64,000 bases of DNA from Acinetobacter sp. GSS19 (GTDB lineage: Bacteria > Pseudomonadota > Gammaproteobacteria > Pseudomonadales > Moraxellaceae): contig NZ_CP117520.1 in assembly GCF_028621895.1 (NCBI RefSeq), forward strand, positions 620,001 to 684,000, given 5' to 3'. The position numbers were made by a program, and so were the translations under genes. Numbering within the stretch: the stretch's first letter is position 1; each line of letters begins with the position of its first letter. The notes beneath the pieces were generated by a model, which made no database searches, was not told where the DNA came from, and was given only the letters and a program-made list of their open reading frames with translations. This document shows, piece by piece, positions 5,927 to 21,486 of this stretch.

Positions 5927-6190
5927 TCACAGCAGATTGTTGCTGAGTTTTCTAGCAATTTTTCCGACTTTTTTGTAAAAGTAGTCTGGCTGAAAATGCT
6001 GGACAGGATTGGGATAGCTGTAAGTCCTCTTCTCTTTTTCAATGCTTAAGACCATTGTTCCTATGATAGAGCGTACGACTTGCATGGATCGATGGATCAG
6101 CTGGGTGACTTTGACTATGTTGATTGCATAGATCTCGATTCGTTTAAACAGGGCTGAATCCGCTCGGCGGGCAGCTTGCTTAGCACTCAT
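5927..6190 (-). CDS. Possible small basic protein, unrecognised
   Basis: An 87-codon open frame from an ATG at 6190, ending 38 bases upstream of the patatin gene and in the same direction. The product would be basic and rich in Arg, Lys, Ile and Tyr, with no recognisable motif, signal peptide or clear membrane segment. No convincing ribosome site precedes the ATG. It fills most of the 346-base gap between the patatin and MFS genes and could equally be chance; the MFS promoter must lie in the same stretch. Confidence 0.22.
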   Translation of the reverse strand: MSAKQAARRADSALFKRIEIYAINIVKVTQLIHRSMQVVRSIIGTMVLSIEKEKRTYSYPNPVQHFQPDYFYKKVGKIARKLSNNLL

Positions 6191-6234
6191 CTGAATAGAG
6201 AGCATGATTACCGTAAACTTCAACCGGAACCTTT

Positions 6235-7509
6235 ATGCACATATCGCATTTGTACTGGCTGTTATTTTCCCTGTATTGGGCACAAGGTTTGCCAGTCGGT
6301 TTTATGACCCATGCTTTACCGGTGATTTTGCGTTCTGAAGGGGTTTCGCTGGCACAGATTGGTGGTCTGGGTTTGTTGATGTTGCCATGGTCGGTCAAAA
6401 TTCTCTGGGCACCTTGGGTGGATCGTATCTCTGGTTCATTCGGCCGTTATCGTAGCTGGATTCTCCCGAGTCAATTATTGACCTTATTGTGCTTGTTAAT
6501 GTTGGCTTTTTTTCCGTTGCAAGCCTTGCAACATCCTAGTTATTTGATCGGATTGTTTGTACTTTTACTGCTGATGAATCTGTTCGGTGCGACCCAAGAT
6601 ATCGCGACAGATGGTCTGGCGGTTCGTCTATTACATTCAGACCAGCAACGTTGGGGCAATGCACTGCAGGTGATCGGTTCGCGTTTGGGGTTCATTGTAG
6701 GTGGTGGTCTACTGCTCTGGAGCTTGGAACACTGGGGTTGGCAGATCAGTTTTTTCTGGCTCGCCGCCTTGGTTTTGATCAATACCTTACCCATTGCCTG
6801 TGTACGTACCTCACATTTACAACAGTTAGCTCCTCCTGTTTCTCACACGACTTCCTCCGGCTGGATCGAACTTAAGCAACATTTTTTTCGTTATTGGCAA
6901 GATCCCGTTTTGCGTGCCTGGTTCTGGGTATTACTGAGCTTTAAGGTAGCTGATGGCATGGCAGGACCCTTGCTCAAACCTCTAGCGGTTGATCTAGGGC
7001 TATCCTTATCTGCGATTGGTCTTTATATCACGCTGCTCGGGGCAGTGGCGGCCTTGGTCGGAGCTGCGATTGCTGCATACAGCTTAAGATGGTTGAGTCG
7101 AGTACAGGCATTCATACTGTTTTCACTGTTCAAGGTTTTGAGTTTGTTGGCTTATCTTTGGCTGGCATTGCAGTATGAGCAATCACATCAGGTTGCCCAT
7201 GAACTGATTTATGCAATCAATGCATTTGAAGATTTATGTTCTGCCATGTTGTTGATGGTGATGTTTAGCCTGATCATGCAGTATTGCCGTACCGAATGGG
7301 CCGCGACAGATTTTACTTTTCAGGTGGCTCTGATGGCGACCATCAGTGGCTTGCTATACAGCTTGGGAGGGGGACTGGCGGAGCTGTGGGGTTATAGCCA
7401 TACACTTATTCTGATCATTGTGTTAGCTACATTGCAACTTTATCCGGTCTGGAATTGGAGTCGATATTTAACTAGAAAGTCAAAAAATGTGCATGATTTA
7501 ACATCATAG
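6235..7509 (+). CDS. MFS transporter, AmpG/RhtX-FptX-like
   Basis: A 424-residue inner-membrane carrier with about 12 hydrophobic segments. The sequence fits the MFS subgroup holding AmpG (muropeptide import) and RhtX/FptX (ferric siderophore import): an N terminus with WAQGLPVGF, a segment with PWSVKILWAPWVDR, and GATQDIATDG in the fourth helix region. No siderophore gene or Fur-box-like site is seen next to it, so a siderophore role is not supported by context. The downstream porin gene starts about 107 bases later. Confidence 0.8.
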   Translation: MHISHLYWLLFSLYWAQGLPVGFMTHALPVILRSEGVSLAQIGGLGLLMLPWSVKILWAPWVDRISGSFGRYRSWILPSQLLTLLCLLMLAFFPLQALQHPSYLIGLFVLLLLMNLFGATQDIATDGLAVRLLHSDQQRWGNALQVIGSRLGFIVGGGLLLWSLEHWGWQISFFWLAALVLINTLPIACVRTSHLQQLAPPVSHTTSSGWIELKQHFFRYWQDPVLRAWFWVLLSFKVADGMAGPLLKPLAVDLGLSLSAIGLYITLLGAVAALVGAAIAAYSLRWLSRVQAFILFSLFKVLSLLAYLWLALQYEQSHQVAHELIYAINAFEDLCSAMLLMVMFSLIMQYCRTEWAATDFTFQVALMATISGLLYSLGGGLAELWGYSHTLILIIVLATLQLYPVWNWSRYLTRKSKNVHDLTS

Positions 7510-7616
7510 AATTAGACTTTTTGCTAAAAACCGAATAAACAAATCGAAATAAAATGGTTCTGTGCTATAAGGCGATCTTGTAATGTTTGTTGCAAATATA
7601 TGACAGGATCAATCAA

Positions 7617-8774
7617 ATGAAAACTAAAATTGCCCTTGCAATCACACTTGGCTTAGCGGCTAGTTCCGGTTTTGCAGCGCCAACGCTGTATGGTGAAATT
7701 GATGCAAGTGTTGACTATTTACCCGAAGATAATGCAACGACAAAAGATCGTGATGTTTGGGAAGTGAGTTCAAATAGTTCATTTATTGGTGTAAAGGGTG
7801 AAGAAAAGCTAAGCCCGCGTTTAAGTGCGGTATATGCTATTGAGTGGGGACTCAGTGCTGATGGCGACAGCACCGATTGGACGACACGTAACCGTTTTGT
7901 TGGTTTAAAAGATGCAAAATTGGGAACACTCAAAGCGGGTGCACATGATACGCCCCTCAAGCAACTTTCCAGTGCTGTTGATACCTTTAATAACTATGTC
8001 GCAAACAAGGCTGATGTGACCGGGATTATGACGGGTGAAAACCGTGTCTCCAATGCGGTGGTGTATGAGTCTCCTGCCATTGCACTTCCTGTCGGTGCAC
8101 TTAAGCTAAATGCTTTGCTGGCCAGTGGTGAAAATAAAGGCATTGATAAAGGTAACGGATCTGCTAAAACGGCTGGCCGTGGCTTAGGAGATGCCTGGTC
8201 TGCTTCACTAGTGTATGAAAGCCCGGTTGTGGTAGCAGGTGTGGCCTATGATAAAGCCATTCCGAGCAACTTTTTGGGCCGTGGTATTTTGAATACCGAA
8301 AATGGTGAAATTTCTTCTAAAGGTTCCGTATTTGCTGCTGCCAATACTGTACGGGCGATTGGCCGTGTCAATTTAGATGGTGGCTTGGCGCTAAAAGTGT
8401 TGTATCAAACTTCAGAAGCAGAAGAAACAGCAAATGCGAGTTATGATTTAACGACTGAAAAAGGTCTTGGAGATTATACTAAATGGTTGAAGTCTGTAAA
8501 AAGTATAGATGATGCCCAAGGCTGGTTAGTAGGTGCGGAATATAACCTGGCAAATGCCAAAGCTTGGACTGTGAAAGCTCAGTACAGTCAGAACACTACC
8601 AGCTTCAAAGATGCAACAGCTGATTTTGAAGCCAAACAGGTGATTGCAGGTGTCGATTATGCCTTCAATAAACAGGTAAAAGCTTATGGCTATGCAGGTT
8701 ACTTAACCCTGGAACAAGCCGATCAAGAAACCAAACAACCAGTTGTCGGCAGCGGTTTGGAAATCAAATTTTAA
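7617..8774 (+). CDS. Outer-membrane porin (Gram-negative porin family)
   Basis: A 385-residue outer-membrane beta-barrel. The start is the ATG at 7617, preceded by AGGA; upstream in-frame TTG codons would spoil the signal peptide. A classical signal peptide ends at about residue 20 (SGFA/AP). The mature part has many alternating short hydrophobic strands, a general-porin N terminus (TLYGEIDASVDY) and ends in phenylalanine (KF), the usual BAM recognition signal. Substrate unknown. It is closed by a terminator that abuts the pmrC promoter. Confidence 0.87.
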   Translation: MKTKIALAITLGLAASSGFAAPTLYGEIDASVDYLPEDNATTKDRDVWEVSSNSSFIGVKGEEKLSPRLSAVYAIEWGLSADGDSTDWTTRNRFVGLKDAKLGTLKAGAHDTPLKQLSSAVDTFNNYVANKADVTGIMTGENRVSNAVVYESPAIALPVGALKLNALLASGENKGIDKGNGSAKTAGRGLGDAWSASLVYESPVVVAGVAYDKAIPSNFLGRGILNTENGEISSKGSVFAAANTVRAIGRVNLDGGLALKVLYQTSEAEETANASYDLTTEKGLGDYTKWLKSVKSIDDAQGWLVGAEYNLANAKAWTVKAQYSQNTTSFKDATADFEAKQVIAGVDYAFNKQVKAYGYAGYLTLEQADQETKQPVVGSGLEIKF

Positions 8775-11251: not shown

Positions 11252-12613
11252 ATGCAGCAGCGCTCCTATTCCCTGAAAAAACGCCTGATCTGGTTCACAG
11301 GTATTTTTAGTGTGGTGCTCGGCTGTATCCTGATGGTGTCCTCTTATAAGGTCGCTTTACAGGAAATCAATGAAATTCTGGACAAGCAGATGCGTTTTCA
11401 GGCGGAACGTGTAGCCGCAGAGGAATTGCGTCATCAGCAAAGTGATTTTGATCCGAACCGAAAATATTCAGAAGAAGATCTTTTTGTTGATATCTGGTCC
11501 TATCGCGAGTTGGCCCATCAACAGCATCCGAACCAAGTCTTAATGCCTGTAAAAGTCCCTCAAGCGGGATTTTATGAACATGAGAGTTTTTCAGGTACCT
11601 GGCTGGCCTATGTGATTCCGCTACAAGATTATCAGGTACAGGTGAGCCAGCAGCAAAGTGTCCGGGAAATGTTGGCCTGGGAGCTGGCCGCCAGCCTGTT
11701 TATTCCCTATATGCTGATTATTCCATTGGCCTTATGGGGGCTGATTCACATCATCCAGCGCAGTTTAAAACCCTTGGATGACTTTAAAGCAGAACTGGCA
11801 CAACGGAACTCAGATGATCTGACGCCTATTCAGGATCTGGAATATCCAGCGGAACTGTTACCCACCATTGAAGAAATGAACCATTTGCTGCAACGGATTT
11901 CGATTGCCCAGCAAGAGCAAAAACAGTTTATTGCTGACGCCGCCCACGAATTACGTACGCCGATTACCGCATTAAATTTGCAAACCCAGATTTTACAAAA
12001 ACAGTTTCCCGATCAGCCGGAAATTAAAAATCTGAGCAAGGGTCTTGTGCGCATGCAGCATCTGGTCAGTCAGCTTTTGACGCTGGCCAAGCAGGATGCT
12101 TTTTTGGTCGAACTGGAACAGCCTCAAGATTTCGAACTGAATCAGGTGGCGTTGAGCTGTGTGGAAGAACTGATGCATTTGGCGATGCAAAAGGAACAGG
12201 ATTTAGGTTTGTTGCGCAATGAAACTGTACGGATGCATAGCCAGCCCACTGCAGTACACTCGATTATTTTTAACCTGCTGGATAATGCAATTAAATATAC
12301 ACCGGCTGGTGGAGTAATTAATTTATCTATTTATCAGCAGGATGATGATGCCTATATTTTACTTGAAGACAGCGGTCCCGGAATTTCACCTGAATTGTAT
12401 GAGCAGGTGATGAAACGCTTCTATCGCATTCATCACCATCTGGAGCAGGGCAGCGGTTTGGGAATGTCCATCGTACACAAGGCGATTCAGCGTTTGGGCG
12501 GCAGTATTCAGATGGACCGGAGTACAGAACTTGGTGGATTATGGGTGCTGGTACGCTTACCGACCCACTGGGTTCAGAAGAAAACGTCGGTAAAACAGCG
12601 CATAGGCAGCTAA
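11252..12613 (+). CDS. pmrB: Sensor histidine kinase PmrB
   Basis: Membrane histidine kinase that phosphorylates PmrA in response to cation, pH or envelope signals. Two membrane helices (about 12-31 and 145-167) bracket a periplasmic loop of about 115 residues; HAMP-like linker; H-box AHELRTP with H232; N-box NLLDNAIKYTP (341-351); G boxes EDSGPGIS and GSGLGMS. All catalytic elements are intact. Length 453 is slightly longer than the A. baumannii protein. Its last 57 bases overlap, tail to tail, the 3' end of the opposite PAP2 gene. Confidence 0.95.
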   Translation: MQQRSYSLKKRLIWFTGIFSVVLGCILMVSSYKVALQEINEILDKQMRFQAERVAAEELRHQQSDFDPNRKYSEEDLFVDIWSYRELAHQQHPNQVLMPVKVPQAGFYEHESFSGTWLAYVIPLQDYQVQVSQQQSVREMLAWELAASLFIPYMLIIPLALWGLIHIIQRSLKPLDDFKAELAQRNSDDLTPIQDLEYPAELLPTIEEMNHLLQRISIAQQEQKQFIADAAHELRTPITALNLQTQILQKQFPDQPEIKNLSKGLVRMQHLVSQLLTLAKQDAFLVELEQPQDFELNQVALSCVEELMHLAMQKEQDLGLLRNETVRMHSQPTAVHSIIFNLLDNAIKYTPAGGVINLSIYQQDDDAYILLEDSGPGISPELYEQVMKRFYRIHHHLEQGSGLGMSIVHKAIQRLGGSIQMDRSTELGGLWVLVRLPTHWVQKKTSVKQRIGS

Positions 12614-14847: not shown

Positions 14848-14964
14848 TGCACCAATACATGCAATTGATGTGGGAAATATTGATTAAAGATTCTTAATAA
14901 TCCTCAAGACTCGATATAAAGCAAATAGCTGCACCAATATGGAAAATATGGACTTTTTTGGTGC
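14848..14964 (-). promoter_or_regulatory. Candidate NtrC-type binding sites upstream of amt
   Basis: Three stretches resemble the NtrC site pattern TGCACYA-N-TGGTGCA: TGCACCAATACATGCA (14848-14863), TGCACCAATATGG (14930-14942) and TGGACTTTTTTGGTGC (14949-14964). The outer arms GCACCAA (14931-14937) and TTGGTGC (14958-14964) are perfectly complementary. Nitrogen control of amt is usual in proteobacteria. I could not find a sigma-54 -24/-12 element with correct GG-N10-GC spacing, which weakens the case. Confidence 0.4.
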
Positions 14965-15083
14965 TGGTTTTTTACAGGGGAAGGATTGAATCGGCCAGTT
15001 TTGACTCAGTCATGGGCCAAAAGCAGATTTATTTGCTCATCCTTATATATTGATGATGTTGAATAACGGGCTATTGCCGTGCA

Positions 15084-15115
15084 AAAAATAAAGCCTTTCC
15101 CCAAGAAAAGGCTTT
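15084..15115 (-). terminator. Terminator of the GTPase/Roadblock operon
   Basis: Perfect nine-base-pair stem AAAGCCTTT / AAAGGCTTT with an eight-base loop; on the minus strand it is followed by a T-rich tail. It lies about 70 bases after the last Roadblock gene. Confidence 0.85.
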
Positions 15116-15186
15116 AAGACAGCGTGAGGGCTGTGCATCTGCAAGCTCAAAGCTTTACATTTGCACAGGCATGCCATCAGACTCAA

Positions 15187-15543
15187 TTATGAAAAATCGA
15201 GTTCTTTTTCGAATGATTTCAATTCAAAACGTGCCATAGCGAGGTTTGACTTAGCACGATCAAGAACTAAATACAAAAATAGGTTTTCATTGGTTTCTAG
15301 TGGACGAAGCAAGTGATATTGCTTGCCTAAAGTGATCAGAACATCTTCGATCCCGTCATTTAATTCAAGTGCTTTCGCCACTTTACGTTTTGCACGAAGT
15401 ACTTCTGTGTTACCTGCTGCAGCAAGTTCCAAATTGATTCCTGTCCCCTGAGTTGCCAAAGCAAGACCACTTTCACTGTCTACAAGCGCTGATGCAACAA
15501 AACCATCAATTGCTGTTAAGGTATCTAGTGCAATACGTGCCAT
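15187..15543 (-). CDS. Roadblock/LC7-like protein (distal gene of module)
   Basis: A 118-residue cytosolic protein. The opening helix and [21 protein letters not shown], a helix-strand-turn-strand unit, match the Roadblock/LC7 (MglB-like) fold, whose members dimerise and often act as partners or GTPase-activating proteins of small GTPases. ATG at 15543 has AGGTGA at good spacing; an upstream in-frame GTG has none. It is the last gene of a four-gene minus-strand unit beginning with a small GTPase. Precise role unknown. Confidence 0.75.
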
Positions 15544-15593
15544 TTTATTTTTCACCTGTGTTATGGGGGATGTCCCCGAAAAAATCCATCTTT

Positions 15594-16553
15594 TTACAGA
15601 CCTAGTTTTTTACGCAGTTTCCCAAAGAAACCGCGCAGTTTAATCATCTGATTACTATCAGCTGATTTATCGCCTCTCATGAATTGTGCTTCATGAGGTT
15701 CAATCCATTTGCCCATTTTGAGCAGATGCGTAATGGCTACAAATTTAATGAGCCGTTCATGTGAAATATTCAAATGATCGGCAACGCTTTGTAGCTGGGC
15801 ACCTTGCGCAAAACAGGCAGAAATCTTGAGCAGATCACGCCGCTCGTATCCGGTATCAAATTGTGGCCAAATTTCCAGCTGAAAATGCTGATTGAGCTGA
15901 ATCTTGGGTAAGTCGAGTGCTGCCGAACGAAATGCCGCTTGCCATAACCAGTTACGCAGATCCTGGGCTTTTTTATTTTTACTGGTTTCCTGCACAAACT
16001 GGCTGGTGGCATAGGTCTGGTTCAGACTTTTATTAAAAGACAGCATCGGGTTGTCGCCATTCACCCAAACCCGTTCGGTCATGGTATCCACCAATGCGAG
16101 GAAGCCACTGGAGTCAAACAGCTGGATATAACCATTACGCGGCAGTAAACATTCACTGATGATGGTGCTGATATTGACTTTTTCTTCACTGACCGCTGGA
16201 GCTGGTTTAAAGGTATAGAGCGGTTCATAGTCAAAGAATTTTTCCTGTAACCACTGCTGTAAATCCGTCAACTGTTCTACCGGATAACTCAGGTTATCCG
16301 CTTCAATTTTCCCACCACCGCTGGAAGTTTTGAGCAGGCGCAGATAGGGCATACCATGATGTGACAGAATTTTTTGAATGCTGGAGGACTGAAAAAAAGC
16401 ATCATTGACCATGAGCAGATCAATTTTTTGTTCGGCAATATTGACCCATTGCACTTGAATCCCATTCGGTACGGCCAGCAGAATTTGGCCCTTGAGTTGA
16501 TCGAGCATATTCAGGCTGAGACCGAAAACCGCAATATTTAAAATTTTTTTCAT
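15594..16553 (-). CDS. Unrecognised 319-aa protein within the GTPase/Roadblock module
   Basis: I do not recognise this protein. It is soluble, without signal peptide or membrane helices. Residues 1-100 look like an alpha/beta domain; about residues 235-285 contain [24 protein letters not shown], shown in part as a helix-turn-helix-like stretch that could be a winged helix, and the C terminus is very basic. Its place between two Roadblock genes, after a small GTPase, suggests a partner or effector of that switch, as the winged-helix DUF742 protein is in Streptomyces conservons. That analogy is inference only. Confidence 0.7.
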
Positions 16554-16652
16554 GGTTCACTCGCATTCAGTCGGATAAAGCAAGACACTTTTGTACTCCG
16601 TATTGTGTGAAGAACAGGTAAATAATGGTCTGTGCTAATCGCTGAGTGCTCT

Positions 16653-17063
16653 TTAAGTACTCGTTGTTAAGGTTTCTACGACCTTTTTTAATGTGTATTG
16701 CAGTTGTCCAATCAGGACATCACGCGAAGCTAAAGCCACAATCACCATTGGATATTGCGGGTGATCTACACCCGTGAGCATCACTTTGCCGTTATCGGCA
16801 TCCAGGGTAATGGTTCTACAGCCAGTCAATTGAATTTCGGAAATAAAGGCAGACACCATTGCCAAGATCGAACTGCTGACCGCTGCAATCTTGCTTGGAT
16901 TTTGCAGATTCTTCTTGCTGGCCAAAGCCAGTTCAAAACCGTCAGATGAACAGAGCATGACAAAATCAATGCCAGAAACGCTATTCAGTAATTCCTGAAT
17001 TTCTGCCCGACCGATATCAATGAGACCTTGCGGAATTTGACGTGAGTTTAGCGCTGCATTCAT
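16653..17063 (-). CDS. Roadblock/LC7 domain protein (proximal gene of module)
   Basis: A 136-residue cytosolic protein with a clear Roadblock/LC7 pattern: long first helix (about 14-31), strand SGIDFVMLCSSDGFELA, then the central helix with SSSILAMVSAFISE, strands TITLDADNGKVMLTGV and the final helix. Such proteins form dimers that bind Ras-like GTPases (MglB with MglA, CvnB with CvnD). It starts 16 bases after the GTPase gene and has AAAGGA upstream. Partnership with that GTPase is the natural reading. Confidence 0.85.
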   Translation of the reverse strand: MNAALNSRQIPQGLIDIGRAEIQELLNSVSGIDFVMLCSSDGFELALASKKNLQNPSKIAAVSSSILAMVSAFISEIQLTGCRTITLDADNGKVMLTGVDHPQYPMVIVALASRDVLIGQLQYTLKKVVETLTTST

Positions 17064-17079
17064 GGTGAATAAAATCCTT

Positions 17080-17622
17080 TTAGCTGATTGATGGTTTAAC
17101 TATTTCAGCCGTTGCAATTAAAGCTTCGGTCATCAATAACACATCATCTTTTTGTCTTGCATCCACTGCAAAGAGCGGGTAATGTCGGTGGTTCACCTGC
17201 ATCCAGTCCCGATAGATCTTCAGCATTTGATCATCCTGTTGGTCTAGATGGGTAATGCCAACCACAATATTGTTGCCATGAGCTTCGAATGCATTTAAAT
17301 AGAACTCTAAGTCTTGCAAACGTTCATTACGGCTATGATCAATCAGGATGACTGTGCCGATAGCACCCTTACAGACAATCGACCACATAAAGTCAAAGCG
17401 ATCTTGTCCTGGAGTACCATACAGTCCAATTTTTAGCCCCTCATCCAGAACGATTTCCCCATAATCGATTCCGACAGTGGTCAAATATTTGCTGTGCGCG
17501 TCTGTATCGGTATTGACTGCTTCGGTTCCAATGACTGGAATATCAGACAATGCCTGAATTGCCGCAGACTTACCTGCACCCATCGTACCGCCAAAAACAA
17601 TCTTGTATTGCTGCAAGATCAT
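17080..17622 (-). CDS. Small Ras-like GTPase (CvnD/MglA-like)
   Basis: A 180-residue GTPase, first gene of the module. P-loop GGTMGAGKS (11-19), switch I threonine near T49, and G3 region YGTPGQDRF (68-76) in which the usual aspartate of DxxG is absent, as in the Streptomyces conservon GTPases (CvnD) whose G3 also reads GTPGQDRF. The G4 motif is THLD (124-127) in place of NKxD and G5 is VDA. With two Roadblock proteins alongside it probably forms a polarity or signalling switch. AAGGA lies six bases before the ATG. Role in Acinetobacter not known to me. Confidence 0.85.
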   Translation of the reverse strand: MILQQYKIVFGGTMGAGKSAAIQALSDIPVIGTEAVNTDTDAHSKYLTTVGIDYGEIVLDEGLKIGLYGTPGQDRFDFMWSIVCKGAIGTVILIDHSRNERLQDLEFYLNAFEAHGNNIVVGITHLDQQDDQMLKIYRDWMQVNHRHYPLFAVDARQKDDVLLMTEALIATAEIVKPSIS

Positions 17623-17914
17623 AGTTATTCCTTAACCGATAAAGTGATCAATCACATCAAGCGCAAAGATTCTATTTTATTAACATTAATTAACAAATAT
17701 CATATTGATTCAAAATTAGTACTTAATTTTTAAAAGCTTTTTAACATGTAATTATATTTATAAAATATATAATGTTTTATTTTTAACCATATTATTTGTG
17801 ATTTTTACACTTTATTGTGAATTGATTGGCTAATAATTTCTTTGATGTGATTGTGTTTGCATATGGGGTTGATGTTTCTTGTATAAATAGGGGTAAGTAG
17901 GAGGTGTGGCAAGA

Positions 17915-18031
17915 GTGGCAAAAAGTGAGATCATATATGGAATGATTCTCATTTATTTGGAGTGTGTTATGTGGATAAAATCTATTCTAGATTGTTCATT
18001 ATTTAAAATCGACTTGCTAATATTTTTCTGA
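17915..18031 (+). CDS. Possible 38-aa hydrophobic small protein
   Basis: A 38-codon frame starting at GTG 17915, ten bases after a perfect AGGAGG (17899-17904); a TATAAA at 17882-17887 could be the -10 of a promoter giving a very short leader. The peptide is rich in Ile, Leu and Phe, with a hydrophobic middle and end and two cysteines. Small membrane peptides of this kind include type I toxins, but AT-rich DNA yields such frames by chance. No homology is recognised. A Fur-like palindrome lies inside the frame. Confidence 0.27.
   Translation: MAKSEIIYGMILIYLECVMWIKSILDCSLFKIDLLIFF
17941..17953. promoter_or_regulatory. Fur-box-like palindrome
   Basis: AATGATTCTCATT matches the core of the Fur consensus (AATGATAATCATT) at 11 of 13 positions, with perfect five-base arms. 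It sits more than 300 bases from the next recognised gene, so its target, if any, is unclear. Confidence 0.3.
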
Positions 18032-18273
18032 GATGGTCTGTTCTTTATCCCAAATTTACTTCTGAGAAGGCCGATAAAAACACAGCCTTGATGACTCACT
18101 TGTGGTTCACATCAGTAGAACCTGTACTTTGTCTGAAGTGAGAGAAACTCAGAAACTGAATAAGAGATCTGACGACTAAGAAATGGCGTACATATCGTCT
18201 ATTTAGACCATGCAAAAGCAAGCGATACGAATTTCAAATCCGCTATAATTTTTCTTTTGCTTTGATCTTTGCG

Positions 18274-19332
18274 ATGTCTCTCGATTTAAAAACAACTCAA
18301 CAGCCAGACGCAGTGCTTTCACCGCAGCAAAAAAAGCTCAATCGTCTGATTGAAAAAATTGAACAGCAAAAGGTTGAACTGGCCGCATGGCAACAAGCGA
18401 AAACCGAGATTCAGCAGTATGCACGGCAAACTCTCGTGCCCGTCTATCACGAATTGCAGGTGATTTTATTTCAGCAGCTTGAACAGTTATGGCACAGCTT
18501 GCAGAGCAATGCATTCTCCAAAGCCGATATGGCACAGCTTGACGATAAAATTCAATCTCTCGCAGCCCTTTTAAAAGACTCACAAGCGCTGTCCGAGCAG
18601 CAGTTAACTACAGTCGACGAGCTTTATGCTTTTTATCAGCAGTATGCTGAATATGAACAAGCGAAAAAAGCCAGGAAGAAAGCATCTCCTGACACAGGGC
18701 CTATTTTTGAACGTACTGAATTAGAGCCAGATGATGGCTTTGGCGAATTTGATGAACTGGATGATTGGGATCATGCACAACACCAGCGTGAACGTGAACA
18801 CGCCAAACTGCAACGCCAGCAAGAGAAACGTGAGCAAGCACAAAAAATGGCAGAGCAGTCATTGAAAACCGTGTATTTAAAAATCGCTGCCGTGATTCAC
18901 CCTGACCGTGAGCAAGACGAAAGCAAGAAACTTGAAAAAACCGAAATGCTGCAACATGCCAATGCCGCCTATGAACAGCAGGATTTATTTTATTTGCTGA
19001 AACTGCAAATACAGATTGAGCAGAATAGAGGAGCAACGCAAAAAGGTTTAACTGCCGAGCAAATCAAGTTTTATAAGCTCGCACTCGATGCGCAAAGTCA
19101 GCAGTTAGACAGCCAAATCGATGAGATTATTGCTTCACTGAATTGGACGAAAAAAGCCAAAATCGCTGCTCAAAAATCAAAAGCAGTAAAGATTCAGATT
19201 CCAGATTTGTATAAGCAAATTGATGTGGATACTGCGGATTTAAAACAGCAGGTGAAGGTTGAAAAGGAACAGCTGAAATATATGAGTCGGGTGAAAGAGT
19301 TGGAGATGTTGTTGGGGCATCAAGCTCTTTAA
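18274..19332 (+). CDS. J-domain (DnaJ-like) coiled-coil protein
   Basis: A 352-residue soluble protein, mostly charged, Gln-rich coiled coil. In the middle, TVYLKIAAVIHPDRE followed by a helix with ANAAYEQQDLFYLL is a J domain with its HPD tripeptide at residues 209-211, so it should stimulate a DnaK-type chaperone. No zinc fingers or substrate-binding domains of true DnaJ are present. ATG at 18274 is preferred to the TTG at 18262 because the -10 hexamer ends at 18249. Client unknown. It converges on the OLD-family gene. Confidence 0.8.
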   Translation: MSLDLKTTQQPDAVLSPQQKKLNRLIEKIEQQKVELAAWQQAKTEIQQYARQTLVPVYHELQVILFQQLEQLWHSLQSNAFSKADMAQLDDKIQSLAALLKDSQALSEQQLTTVDELYAFYQQYAEYEQAKKARKKASPDTGPIFERTELEPDDGFGEFDELDDWDHAQHQREREHAKLQRQQEKREQAQKMAEQSLKTVYLKIAAVIHPDREQDESKKLEKTEMLQHANAAYEQQDLFYLLKLQIQIEQNRGATQKGLTAEQIKFYKLALDAQSQQLDSQIDEIIASLNWTKKAKIAAQKSKAVKIQIPDLYKQIDVDTADLKQQVKVEKEQLKYMSRVKELEMLLGHQAL

Positions 19333-19380: not shown

Positions 19381-21486
19381 CTATGAGAAAATTTTATTCA
19401 TCATTCTCGAAATTTCACAATCTTCTTTGTCTTGATAATGGATTTTTGGTAAGTAATTAATATCTGAAGATTTAATAATTTCTAAAGCATTTAACGCTTT
19501 TGATGGTTTATCTGCACCTGTATAGCCAGAAGGATAGTAATTTTCTATAGCTCCATTATTTAAAATGAAATAGCCGAGTTCATATAATCTATTAATTAGG
19601 GCGACTTTTTCAGGTAGATTTTGTGTAATTTCCAACTCTAAAGCTATTCTTCTTACATGATTTATCTCAAATTCAAAAAGTGATCTAATTTCCTTAAATT
19701 CATCACTGGTTAATGATTTTTCATTTTCGAATTTTAAGGTTAACTCTTTAAGTCTATAGTATTTTTCAACCCAACTACGATTTTCTCTTTGGGTCTTAAT
19801 ATCATCGCTTTTTAGCTTTGGAATAATATTTTGATCCGCACATATTTGATCAATTTTATTTATAAATACTTCTCTGAGCTGCATTATTTCATCTTTAGCA
19901 TCACCTAGTTCAAGATGAGTAAACCCATCCAGTAACACATCACGATCTAACAAGGAAAAAACTTCAATATCAAAATGTTGGTAGAATTTGATGAAGCGTT
20001 TAATATTATTTTTTCCATTAATTCTAACTATAGGAATATTTAATTTATCGAAGCAGTATGTACTGCTAATTAAAGGTGAAATTCCTTTTAAAAAAATTAA
20101 ATCTGAATCGCCTTCAACTAATAAAACTTTTTTTGAGAAGAAAGCCGGTGTGCTGTTTTCATAACATATAATTTGGAAAGCATCTTTATAAGAACTATCT
20201 TTTACAAAATTGATTTCTTTAGCTTTTGAACTTGGTGGAATTGTGGAAAGATCTTTATAAATTTTAATAAAGCAAGTTTCCTTAGCTGTAGCAGAAAAGA
20301 AGTTCGGTGAGTGTGTTGTAACGAATACTTGATCCTTACCAGATAGTTTTTCAAGTACATTATAAAGAACTCTTTGCCCATTTGGGTGTAGATATAGCTC
20401 TGGCTCTTCAAATAAGAATATATAGTCAGGATTTATATTTGAGCTATTTAATCTTTCAACATAAGTTCTAAGTATCGAAAATACTAAACTTCTTTTGACT
20501 CCATCGCCTTTGTAATCAATAGTAGACTTGATACCGTCATCTATCAAAATTTGTGTGCTATTAAAGATTTGTTTAAGTTCAGGATTTGGGATTTGTAATT
20601 CAAGCTTAATATTAGAGAAACTTTCTTGTAGAACTTTCTCAATATCTAATTCAAGTTGTTTCACACTTTCTAATCGATTATCAACAATAGTTTCACTGTC
20701 ATTATTAGTTACTAGTTGTCTATTCAGCATTTTATTTAAGTTTTCAAATGCTGTCTGAATCTCGTTAAATTCTTCAGAGGCTTCAATTTGGCTAAAAAGA
20801 ATTTTAACAAGTTTACCAAAACTAGTAGTTTCCTTAGTTTTAGTTTCATCCGAAAAGTCTTTGACTGCTGGAATGTATATGGGTTCAGGAAAAATAGGGC
20901 TTATGACATTAATTCCTGTTGGTAAATTACCCCAAACGTAGTGTAAATCGTCTTCATTTAAAGTAGTTGCTATCTGCTCGATTATTTCTTTCGCCGTTGC
21001 TTGTGTTCTAATATCGGAAATTTGTTCATCATCTAAAAAATAGGTGTGTTTCATAAACTCTTTGAGAGCTGAACCTGTTTTCCCTTTTAAGTTTTCGTTA
21101 TACCAATTTTCGTTGTAAATTTCATTTATCGGGACTTTTTTATAACAAAGTAATTCCGATGAGAGATTAGAATCATATTTTCTTTGAAACTTAAGCTCAT
21201 TATCTTGTATTAAATTACTAATTCTAGATCTATGTTCATCATCAGCTATCTTCAATAAATCATTTTCTGTTATTGAGTTAAACGTTACTTCTATAAGTAT
21301 AGGCTGATAAGGATCGTGATAATCATTGATATTTACTTTTGAACCATTTAAAAAAAGTTTGAGAGCTAATAATACTGAGGATTTACCTGCATTATTTTCA
21401 CCAATGACACAATTCATCTGTGAAGGTGTTAAATCAATATTTTTAAGACCCCGAAAGTTTTCGATATGTATCTTTGAAATTTTCAT
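19381..21486 (-). CDS. OLD-family ATPase/TOPRIM nuclease, stand-alone
   Basis: A 701-residue protein with an N-terminal SMC/ABC-type ATPase and a C-terminal TOPRIM nuclease, the layout of OLD (overcoming lysogenisation defect) proteins. Visible: Walker A GENNAGKSS (29-37), signature-like GDGVKRSL (327-334), Walker B FLFEEPE (357-363), H-loop THSPNFF (391-397), TOPRIM VEGDSD (457-462) and LLDRD (512-516). No UvrD-like helicase (GajB) or reverse transcriptase gene adjoins, so it is class 1 rather than Gabija. The coding sequence is much more AT-rich than its neighbours, suggesting transfer. Probable anti-phage function, by family. Confidence 0.88.
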   Translation of the reverse strand: MKISKIHIENFRGLKNIDLTPSQMNCVIGENNAGKSSVLLALKLFLNGSKVNINDYHDPYQPILIEVTFNSITENDLLKIADDEHRSRISNLIQDNELKFQRKYDSNLSSELLCYKKVPINEIYNENWYNENLKGKTGSALKEFMKHTYFLDDEQISDIRTQATAKEIIEQIATTLNEDDLHYVWGNLPTGINVISPIFPEPIYIPAVKDFSDETKTKETTSFGKLVKILFSQIEASEEFNEIQTAFENLNKMLNRQLVTNNDSETIVDNRLESVKQLELDIEKVLQESFSNIKLELQIPNPELKQIFNSTQILIDDGIKSTIDYKGDGVKRSLVFSILRTYVERLNSSNINPDYIFLFEEPELYLHPNGQRVLYNVLEKLSGKDQVFVTTHSPNFFSATAKETCFIKIYKDLSTIPPSSKAKEINFVKDSSYKDAFQIICYENSTPAFFSKKVLLVEGDSDLIFLKGISPLISSTYCFDKLNIPIVRINGKNNIKRFIKFYQHFDIEVFSLLDRDVLLDGFTHLELGDAKDEIMQLREVFINKIDQICADQNIIPKLKSDDIKTQRENRSWVEKYYRLKELTLKFENEKSLTSDEFKEIRSLFEFEINHVRRIALELEITQNLPEKVALINRLYELGYFILNNGAIENYYPSGYTGADKPSKALNALEIIKSSDINYLPKIHYQDKEDCEISRMMNKIFS

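Follow-up and report, generated by a model that had tools for sequence, protein, structure and literature searches.

A conserved four-gene unit in Acinetobacter, probably a Group 3 MglA system

In beta/gamma-Proteobacteria, Wuichet and Sogaard-Andersen (2014, PMC4316618) described Group 3 MglA systems, comprising MglA, one or two MglB proteins, and an unknown companion. According to excerpts of that paper, the group is marked by the motif combination of GTPGQ, TT, a Lys-less G4, and DAR, the Asp of the Roadblock Asp-Gly pair lies within reach of MglA, and the companions, in the paper's own set, have a receiver-like N-end and a winged-helix C-end at a Phyre2 confidence of at least 90%. The Snodgrassella mgl locus likewise encodes a Group 3 MglA together with several MglB proteins, one of them orphan; on soft agar, colonies with a mutation of the orphan mglB show motile flares at their edge, and in the excerpted account (PMC11112851) the experiment concerns this allele, not the companion protein. 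In the Group 1 system of Myxococcus, excerpts of PMC7949163 state that MglB binds MglA and MglC through distinct surfaces, with the MglC homodimer sitting between two MglB homodimers.

The window analysed here, a 64,000-nucleotide stretch of Acinetobacter sp. GSS19 whose genome forms one contig of 2.59 Mb, contains a four-gene unit that shares with Group 3 systems the GTPase motifs, a companion, one or two MglB proteins, and a host among the beta/gamma-Proteobacteria. Acinetobacter is named zero times in the excerpted main text of PMC4316618, and a search on Group 3, Roadblock/GTPase, and MglA/MglB, limited to titles and abstract openings and covering few subscription journals, found no experiment on an Acinetobacter member. 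Like Myxococcus MglA-MglB-MglC, the unit combines a GTPase with two dissimilar Roadblock-like proteins; it differs in its G2 and G3 motifs, and a RomR-type gene is absent from it. With the actinobacterial conservons (CvnA-D, Group 2) it shares a CvnB-type Roadblock protein, a CvnD-like GTPase, and possibly a third protein of HTH type, whereas the CvnA kinase is missing and the third protein is not a DUF742 protein, its HTH-like part being preceded by about 200 further residues and followed by a basic tail.

The four genes and their products

The four ORFs claimed in the first-pass annotation are all present on the minus strand at 17622-15187 of the window, in the order GTPase, RB1 (a Roadblock protein), U (the companion), and RB2 (a second, Roadblock-like protein), separated by intergenic gaps of 16, 99, and 38 nt. 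The last gap becomes 50 nt with the ATG start of RB2; because many relatives begin at the corresponding Met, this ATG at 15543 is probably the true start, giving 118 aa, and the earlier-assigned GTG at 15555 is probably wrong. A hairpin resembling an intrinsic terminator lies 3' of RB2 (15089..15116, minus strand; 12-bp stem, loop of 4, TTTTTT tail), known only as a consensus match, and it is the sole minus-strand site of this kind within 14900-18300. Sites like it are nevertheless not more frequent than in shuffles (2 found vs 3.0 expected). Upstream of the GTPase gene, weak matches of promoter type (17669..17703, minus strand) agree with 9 of 12 consensus positions, and matches of this type are rarer than in shuffles (5 found vs 9.5 expected). 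We infer co-transcription of the four genes. The direct neighbours of the unit, a gene for an ammonium transporter and a divergent DnaJ-like gene, were both matched, among the compared loci of other genomes, in L002 only. Also on the minus strand, about 1.8 kb from the GTPase start, 19381-21486 encodes an OLD-family ATPase/TOPRIM protein (PADLOC 'Old', 1.1e-90), likely an anti-phage or DNA-processing gene.

The GTPase (17080..17622, minus strand; 180 aa) is Ras-like and, judged by motifs and identities, of the MglA Group 3 type. It matches Pfam ATP_bind_1 at 5.7e-10, with Ras and Roc matches below threshold. Its motifs are GTMGAGKS in G1, GTPGQDRF in G3 (YGTPGQDRF), THLD without Lys in G4, and DAR in G5 (VDAR), while T48 and T49 of the G2 region, invariant in 21 aligned GTPases, put Thr in the place of the intrinsic Arg. 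The full Group 3 set of GTPGQ, G2 Thr, Lys-less G4, and DAR G5 is thus present in the window GTPase, from which the Group 1 features, TVPGQ and the intrinsic Arg finger, are absent. Identity reaches 41-49% with the GTPases of seven distant proteobacterial loci, 31-35% with five actinobacterial CvnD proteins, and 34% with GTPases from Agarilytica and Deinococcus plasmids. On the Agarilytica plasmid (L113, 2755-4431), a BLUF-domain gene is followed by the MglA-like GTPase gene and a Roadblock gene.

RB1 (16653..17063, minus strand; 136 aa) is an MglB/CvnB-type Roadblock protein with the Asp-Gly pair (CSSDGFEL), matching Pfam Robl_LC7 at 5.9e-7, above the cut-off. Its profile is homologous to that of five CvnB proteins (hhalign 95.5%, P 1.3e-8), which supports, for this protein, the comparison with conservons drawn in the first-pass annotation. 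The DGFEL columns stand at 90% or more, as column consensus, in 87 aligned rows, with matches of up to 100 residues or with stop codons left out of the Roadblock alignments. RB2 (15187..15543, minus strand; 118 aa) is more divergent: the Asp-Gly pair is absent from its alignment, with D-x-E-S-G in the protein of the window, which has no Pfam match. Among 18 aligned RB2 proteins, 10 match Robl_LC7 at E up to 0.1, with a best value of 3.3e-4, and the L026 protein scores 20.4 bits against a curated cut-off of 23. Profile comparison failed to reveal RB2 as a clear Roadblock protein, neither RB1 nor CvnB being similar to it (P 0.33 and 0.4), and its Roadblock nature therefore depends on the weak Pfam matches. 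In the PDB, the best Roadblock hit of the RB2 profile was MglC at a non-significant E of 0.12, behind a non-Roadblock chain at 0.071. The second Roadblock-like protein of the first-pass annotation accordingly stays plausible but weakly supported, backed by its relatives but not by a match of its own. Beside the GTPase there are hence one clear and one weak coupled MglB-type protein, where Group 3 calls for one or two.

Linkage and rearrangement in other genomes

Loci were found via the GTPase, and the best 80 of 171 relative-encoding stretches were kept; the linkage sample consists of the 72 among these titled Acinetobacter or Moraxellaceae (L002-L073), compared by tblastn with fragments counting as matches. 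Same-strand matches beside the GTPase were obtained for U in 72/72 loci, for RB2 in 68/72, and for RB1 in 66/72, RB1 lacking a match in 6 and RB2 in 4. The linkage of the four genes is beyond chance, and they form a conserved unit. The first-pass annotation had named a lack of interaction among the products together with missing linkage in other genomes as what would speak against its reading; as to the second half, linkage is present in 66 to 72 of the 72 Moraxellaceae loci, and the neighbourhood survey supports the grouping of GTPase, Roadblock protein, and dedicated third protein as one set. The titles of the best 80 of 171 loci include no A. baumannii, A. pittii, or A. baylyi, which is not a formal test of absence.

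Gene order varies among the 72 loci. The order RB2-U-GTPase-RB1 ('B') occurs in 48, the order GTPase-RB1-U-RB2 of the window ('A') in 17, and partial orders in the others (GTPase-U-RB2 in 3, U-GTPase, or 'C', in 3, and U-GTPase-RB1 in 1). About 40 of the order-B loci share flanking gene families (clusters c4, c5, and c6, found in 41-42 loci, two of them taken by eye for SspA and SspB) and therefore occupy one conserved place. Presence is patchy: among 149 genomes of the genus, some of whose matches are fragments (e.g. G018) or carry stops (G091, G136), the GTPase was matched in 94 and not in 55, and RB2 in 95. Both were found in 90 genomes, the GTPase only in 4, RB2 only in 5, and neither in 50, a co-occurrence with a Fisher value of 6.7e-29 when kinship is ignored. 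Across Moraxellaceae, 45/99 genomes in 10/16 genera have a GTPase match, two of these matches spanning about 22 residues only. In one genome without a GTPase match (L143, 2871-5766), a 546-aa ORF that matches no Pfam family and a CheY-type response-regulator gene come after an orphan RB2 gene. In L146 (2016-3609), a U gene adjoins a diverged GTPase-like gene, 38% identical, in which the P-loop is kept and GTPGQ is lost.

A maximum-likelihood tree was built from 86 GTPases (81 different), without the broken GTPases of L072 and L073; it holds no rows labelled Group 1, 2, 4, or 5, and the Group 3 placement is made by motifs and identities. According to this tree, one clade of 24 GTPases (support 100/95) unites 20 order-A rows, 3 order-A rows without RB1, and a plasmid copy, and the window GTPase falls inside it, while orders B and C each do not form a single group. 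In several genomes, the GTPase is present in two or three copies. The plasmid copy is an order-A module on the conjugative plasmid p1_010062 of A. wuhouensis; one end of the plasmid record carries RB2, U, and RB1, and the GTPase spans the record start (169/180 residues matched). Its RB1-U-RB2 stretch matches the copy of A. towneri, located on a 604-kb draft contig, with 94.8% identity over 2032 bases, and its GTPase stretch does so with 87.6% over 758 bases, and this high identity argues for spread between species.

Additionally, an RB1-RB2 pair without the other two genes lies in 4-5 kb stretches of four fetched genomes (G144, G094, G085, and G065). Two of these, G144 and G094, from which other loci were covered as well, also have U-GTPase as a locus of its own, together with a further U-GTPase-RB1 locus, an arrangement that fits RB1-RB2 being a unit of its own. 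The four proteins also differ in their conservation. From order A (17 loci, 16 for RB2) to order B (48 loci), median identity to the window changes from 77 to 59% for the GTPase, from 67 to 57% for RB1, from 50 to 30% for U, and from 82 to 78% for RB2. RB2 is thus nearly constant while U diverges, a new observation consistent with U as the specific part. Permuted orders, several GTPase copies, split loci, and a plasmid copy set Acinetobacter apart from Group 3 as published and are described here as new for modules of this kind; as far as gene order and identity indicate, the unit is kept together through rearrangement, duplication, and transfer.

The companion protein U

U (15594..16553, minus strand; 319 aa) has no Pfam match better than E 0.03 and none in NCBIfam or the PDB. 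Alignments were made from 70 members and from a large set of 145 rows, which joins 64 Acinetobacter-type and 81 distant companions, with the weak matches P0095, P0096, and P0165 dropped. The two classes are homologous over 314 columns (98.6%, P 5.7e-16), which strengthens the filing under Group 3. The seven distant loci used for comparison are proteobacterial GTPase loci found here, presumably of Group 3; the companion directly precedes the GTPase in six of them (Derxia, Parvibium, Lysobacter, L076, L080, and L081) but not in L077. In that gammaproteobacterial locus (6007-8347), the GTPase gene, with no companion directly upstream, is followed by a gene for a fused ABC-ATPase/tyrosine-phosphatase-like protein and by a relative of RB2. 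In L080 (3278-9059) and L076 (3642-9073), the Group 3 unit is flanked by response-regulator-type genes and a protein of 523-525 aa, whose L080 copy has no Pfam family, and in Parvibium (L075, 2810-6962) an ammonium transporter gene 27% identical to that of the window lies nearby, possibly by chance.

Weak profile matches point to a possible receiver-like N-end and a possible HTH-like C-end of U. Compared with nine receivers, the N-end gave P 0.002 with 145 rows (HH probability 14%) and 0.084 with 75 distant rows, these and the other profile P values for U being single comparisons out of about 15 run. The full Acinetobacter-type profile showed no signal against receivers (P 0.65), which weakens the domain reading. 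HTH_23, HTH_40, and Sigma70_r4 are matched, at whatever position in the protein, by 10, 7, and 5 of the 70 members at E up to 1. Over about 30-36 columns, comparison of the C-terminal part with CvnC gave P 0.004-0.01 and an HH probability of 4-9%, and full-length profiles gave P 0.03-0.05. The receiver and HTH readings, which depend on how the profile is cut, are weak, and a relationship of the HTH-like part to CvnC is a weak lead only. An assignment of the middle region to the DUF4388/PATAN domain was tried and gave nothing (P 0.22), and a DUF4388 survey scored 4/120 genomes. On a Deinococcus plasmid (L112, 2800-4408), a companion with weak hits to DUF4388 (E 0.17) and HTH (E 0.002) and with a basic C-terminal tail is followed by GTPase and Roadblock genes, an architecture that parallels U.

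Three sequence features distinguish or unite the companions. At the presumed phospho-acceptor column, Asp stands in 71/81 distant proteins, whereas Acinetobacter-type proteins have Asn in 49/64 and Asp in 4/64; with Asp missing in 60/64, the presumed acceptor appears to have been lost in the Acinetobacter type, a new difference from Group 3 as published. The presumed recognition helix holds on average 1.5 Lys/Arg residues (net charge +0.7) in the 64 Acinetobacter-type proteins and 0.36 (net charge -1.7) in the 81 distant ones, and it often ends with hydrophobic letters of the FYNAAYAVDL type. A basic C-terminal tail, also new, is conserved, as read from a pattern without a control, in 63/64 Acinetobacter-type and 74/81 distant proteins. 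Over a 13-residue stretch of the tail, the hydrophobic moment is 0.653 against a shuffle mean of 0.321 and is reached by 2.3% of shuffles; with two other cuts, 9.5% and 7.8% of shuffles reach the observed value, and the amphipathicity is therefore suggestive only.

A candidate mechanism and its rivals

Composition, motifs, companion homology, linkage, and co-occurrence, each established at the level of sequence, make it likely that the unit is an Acinetobacter Group 3 MglA system in which RB1 would be the regulator, RB2 an adaptor, and U a module-specific partner. The GTPase would cycle between GDP and GTP, and an RB1 dimer would bind it and control hydrolysis or exchange, as a GAP or co-regulator in the manner of MglB and CvnB. 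RB2 may be an MglC-like adaptor that binds RB1 and not the GTPase, as MglC binds MglB. U could serve as a module-specific scaffold or effector, whose HTH-like part would dock on either the GTPase or RB1, as CvnC appears to act together with CvnD, whose basic tail would bring the complex to the membrane or another acidic surface, and whose N-end would, in most Acinetobacter-type proteins, sense or dock without phosphorylation. In excerpts of PMC8510531, cvnC8 and cvnD8 mutants behave alike, which supports an HTH protein working with its own GTPase. As the output, surface behaviour or type IV pili would be the least weak guess, given the precedents of Myxococcus (PMC9481161) and Snodgrassella (PMC11112851), both taken from excerpts.

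It is possible, if doubtful, that U is instead a DNA-binding transcription factor under GTPase control, as proposed for Group 3 in 2014. The published Phyre2 winged-helix C-end (PMC4316618) and the HTH families matched among the 70 members at E up to 1 agree with this, as do the altered transcription of cvnC8 mutants and the preference of their authors for DNA binding, both from excerpts of PMC8510531. The presumed recognition helix, with its few basic residues and often hydrophobic end, argues against it, although no set of true DNA binders was compared. HTH folds can be protein-binding. About equally tentative is a role as an MglA-like regulator of polarity or type IV pili. The absence of the Group 1 motifs TVPGQ and intrinsic Arg, the lack of a pilus gene among the direct neighbours in the window, and the 55/149 genus genomes without a GTPase match weigh against it, pili being widespread in Acinetobacter. 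It draws, on the other side, on one orphan RB2 near a CheY-type response-regulator gene, a single case (L143), and, in excerpts, on the government of pili and polarity by MglA/MglB in Myxococcus (PMC9481161) and on the colony flares caused by the orphan mglB mutation in Group 3-bearing Snodgrassella (PMC11112851).

A cargo of mobile elements, serving for instance plasmid maintenance or an anti-phage function, would account for the order-A module on p1_010062 and for the patchy presence across genomes, yet it appears quite unlikely: the conserved place of about 40 order-B loci, marked by the c4, c5, and c6 flanks, speaks against it, and a defence or phage function was rejected on finding no PADLOC or PHROGs match for the four proteins at E 0.01. 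That the unit is a true conservon moved into Acinetobacter is hardly credible. The homology of RB1 to CvnB and the GTPGQ and DAR motifs common to the window GTPase and CvnD would suit such an origin, but the GTPase is nearer to its beta/gamma-proteobacterial relatives than to CvnD at the identities given above, and neither kinase nor DUF742 protein belongs to the unit. Neither the four genes nor those directly beside them include a CvnA histidine kinase, the one histidine-kinase-like ORF seen by eye (11252-12613) lying outside the unit, two genes away on the opposite strand; at E up to 1, DUF742 was matched neither by the U protein of the window nor in the 25 of 58 families shown for the 70 U proteins. 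With U resembling CvnC weakly at best, 'conservon-like', as the first-pass annotation had it, is not supported as a statement of membership, which is rejected for want of the kinase and the DUF742 protein.

Returning to the Group 3 reading, a bolder extension, which we regard as rather improbable, would make the unit a mobile modular switch. A near-invariant MglC-like RB2 would, together with RB1, serve several paralogous GTPase-U pairs in trans, U combining a phosphorylation-dead receiver, a protein-docking HTH, and a membrane-seeking amphipathic tail, and new pairs, spread on plasmids, would connect to the Roadblock core already present.

The definition of Group 3 MglA systems goes back to a genome comparison of 2014, and they have hardly been tested, a literature search that was not exhaustive having found one experimental hint, in excerpts of PMC11112851. 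Acinetobacter provides compact four-gene modules along with natural experiments in the form of split, duplicated, and plasmid-borne copies. With these modules one could ask directly what purpose a second Roadblock protein serves and whether DNA, the membrane, or the GTPase is bound by the companion.
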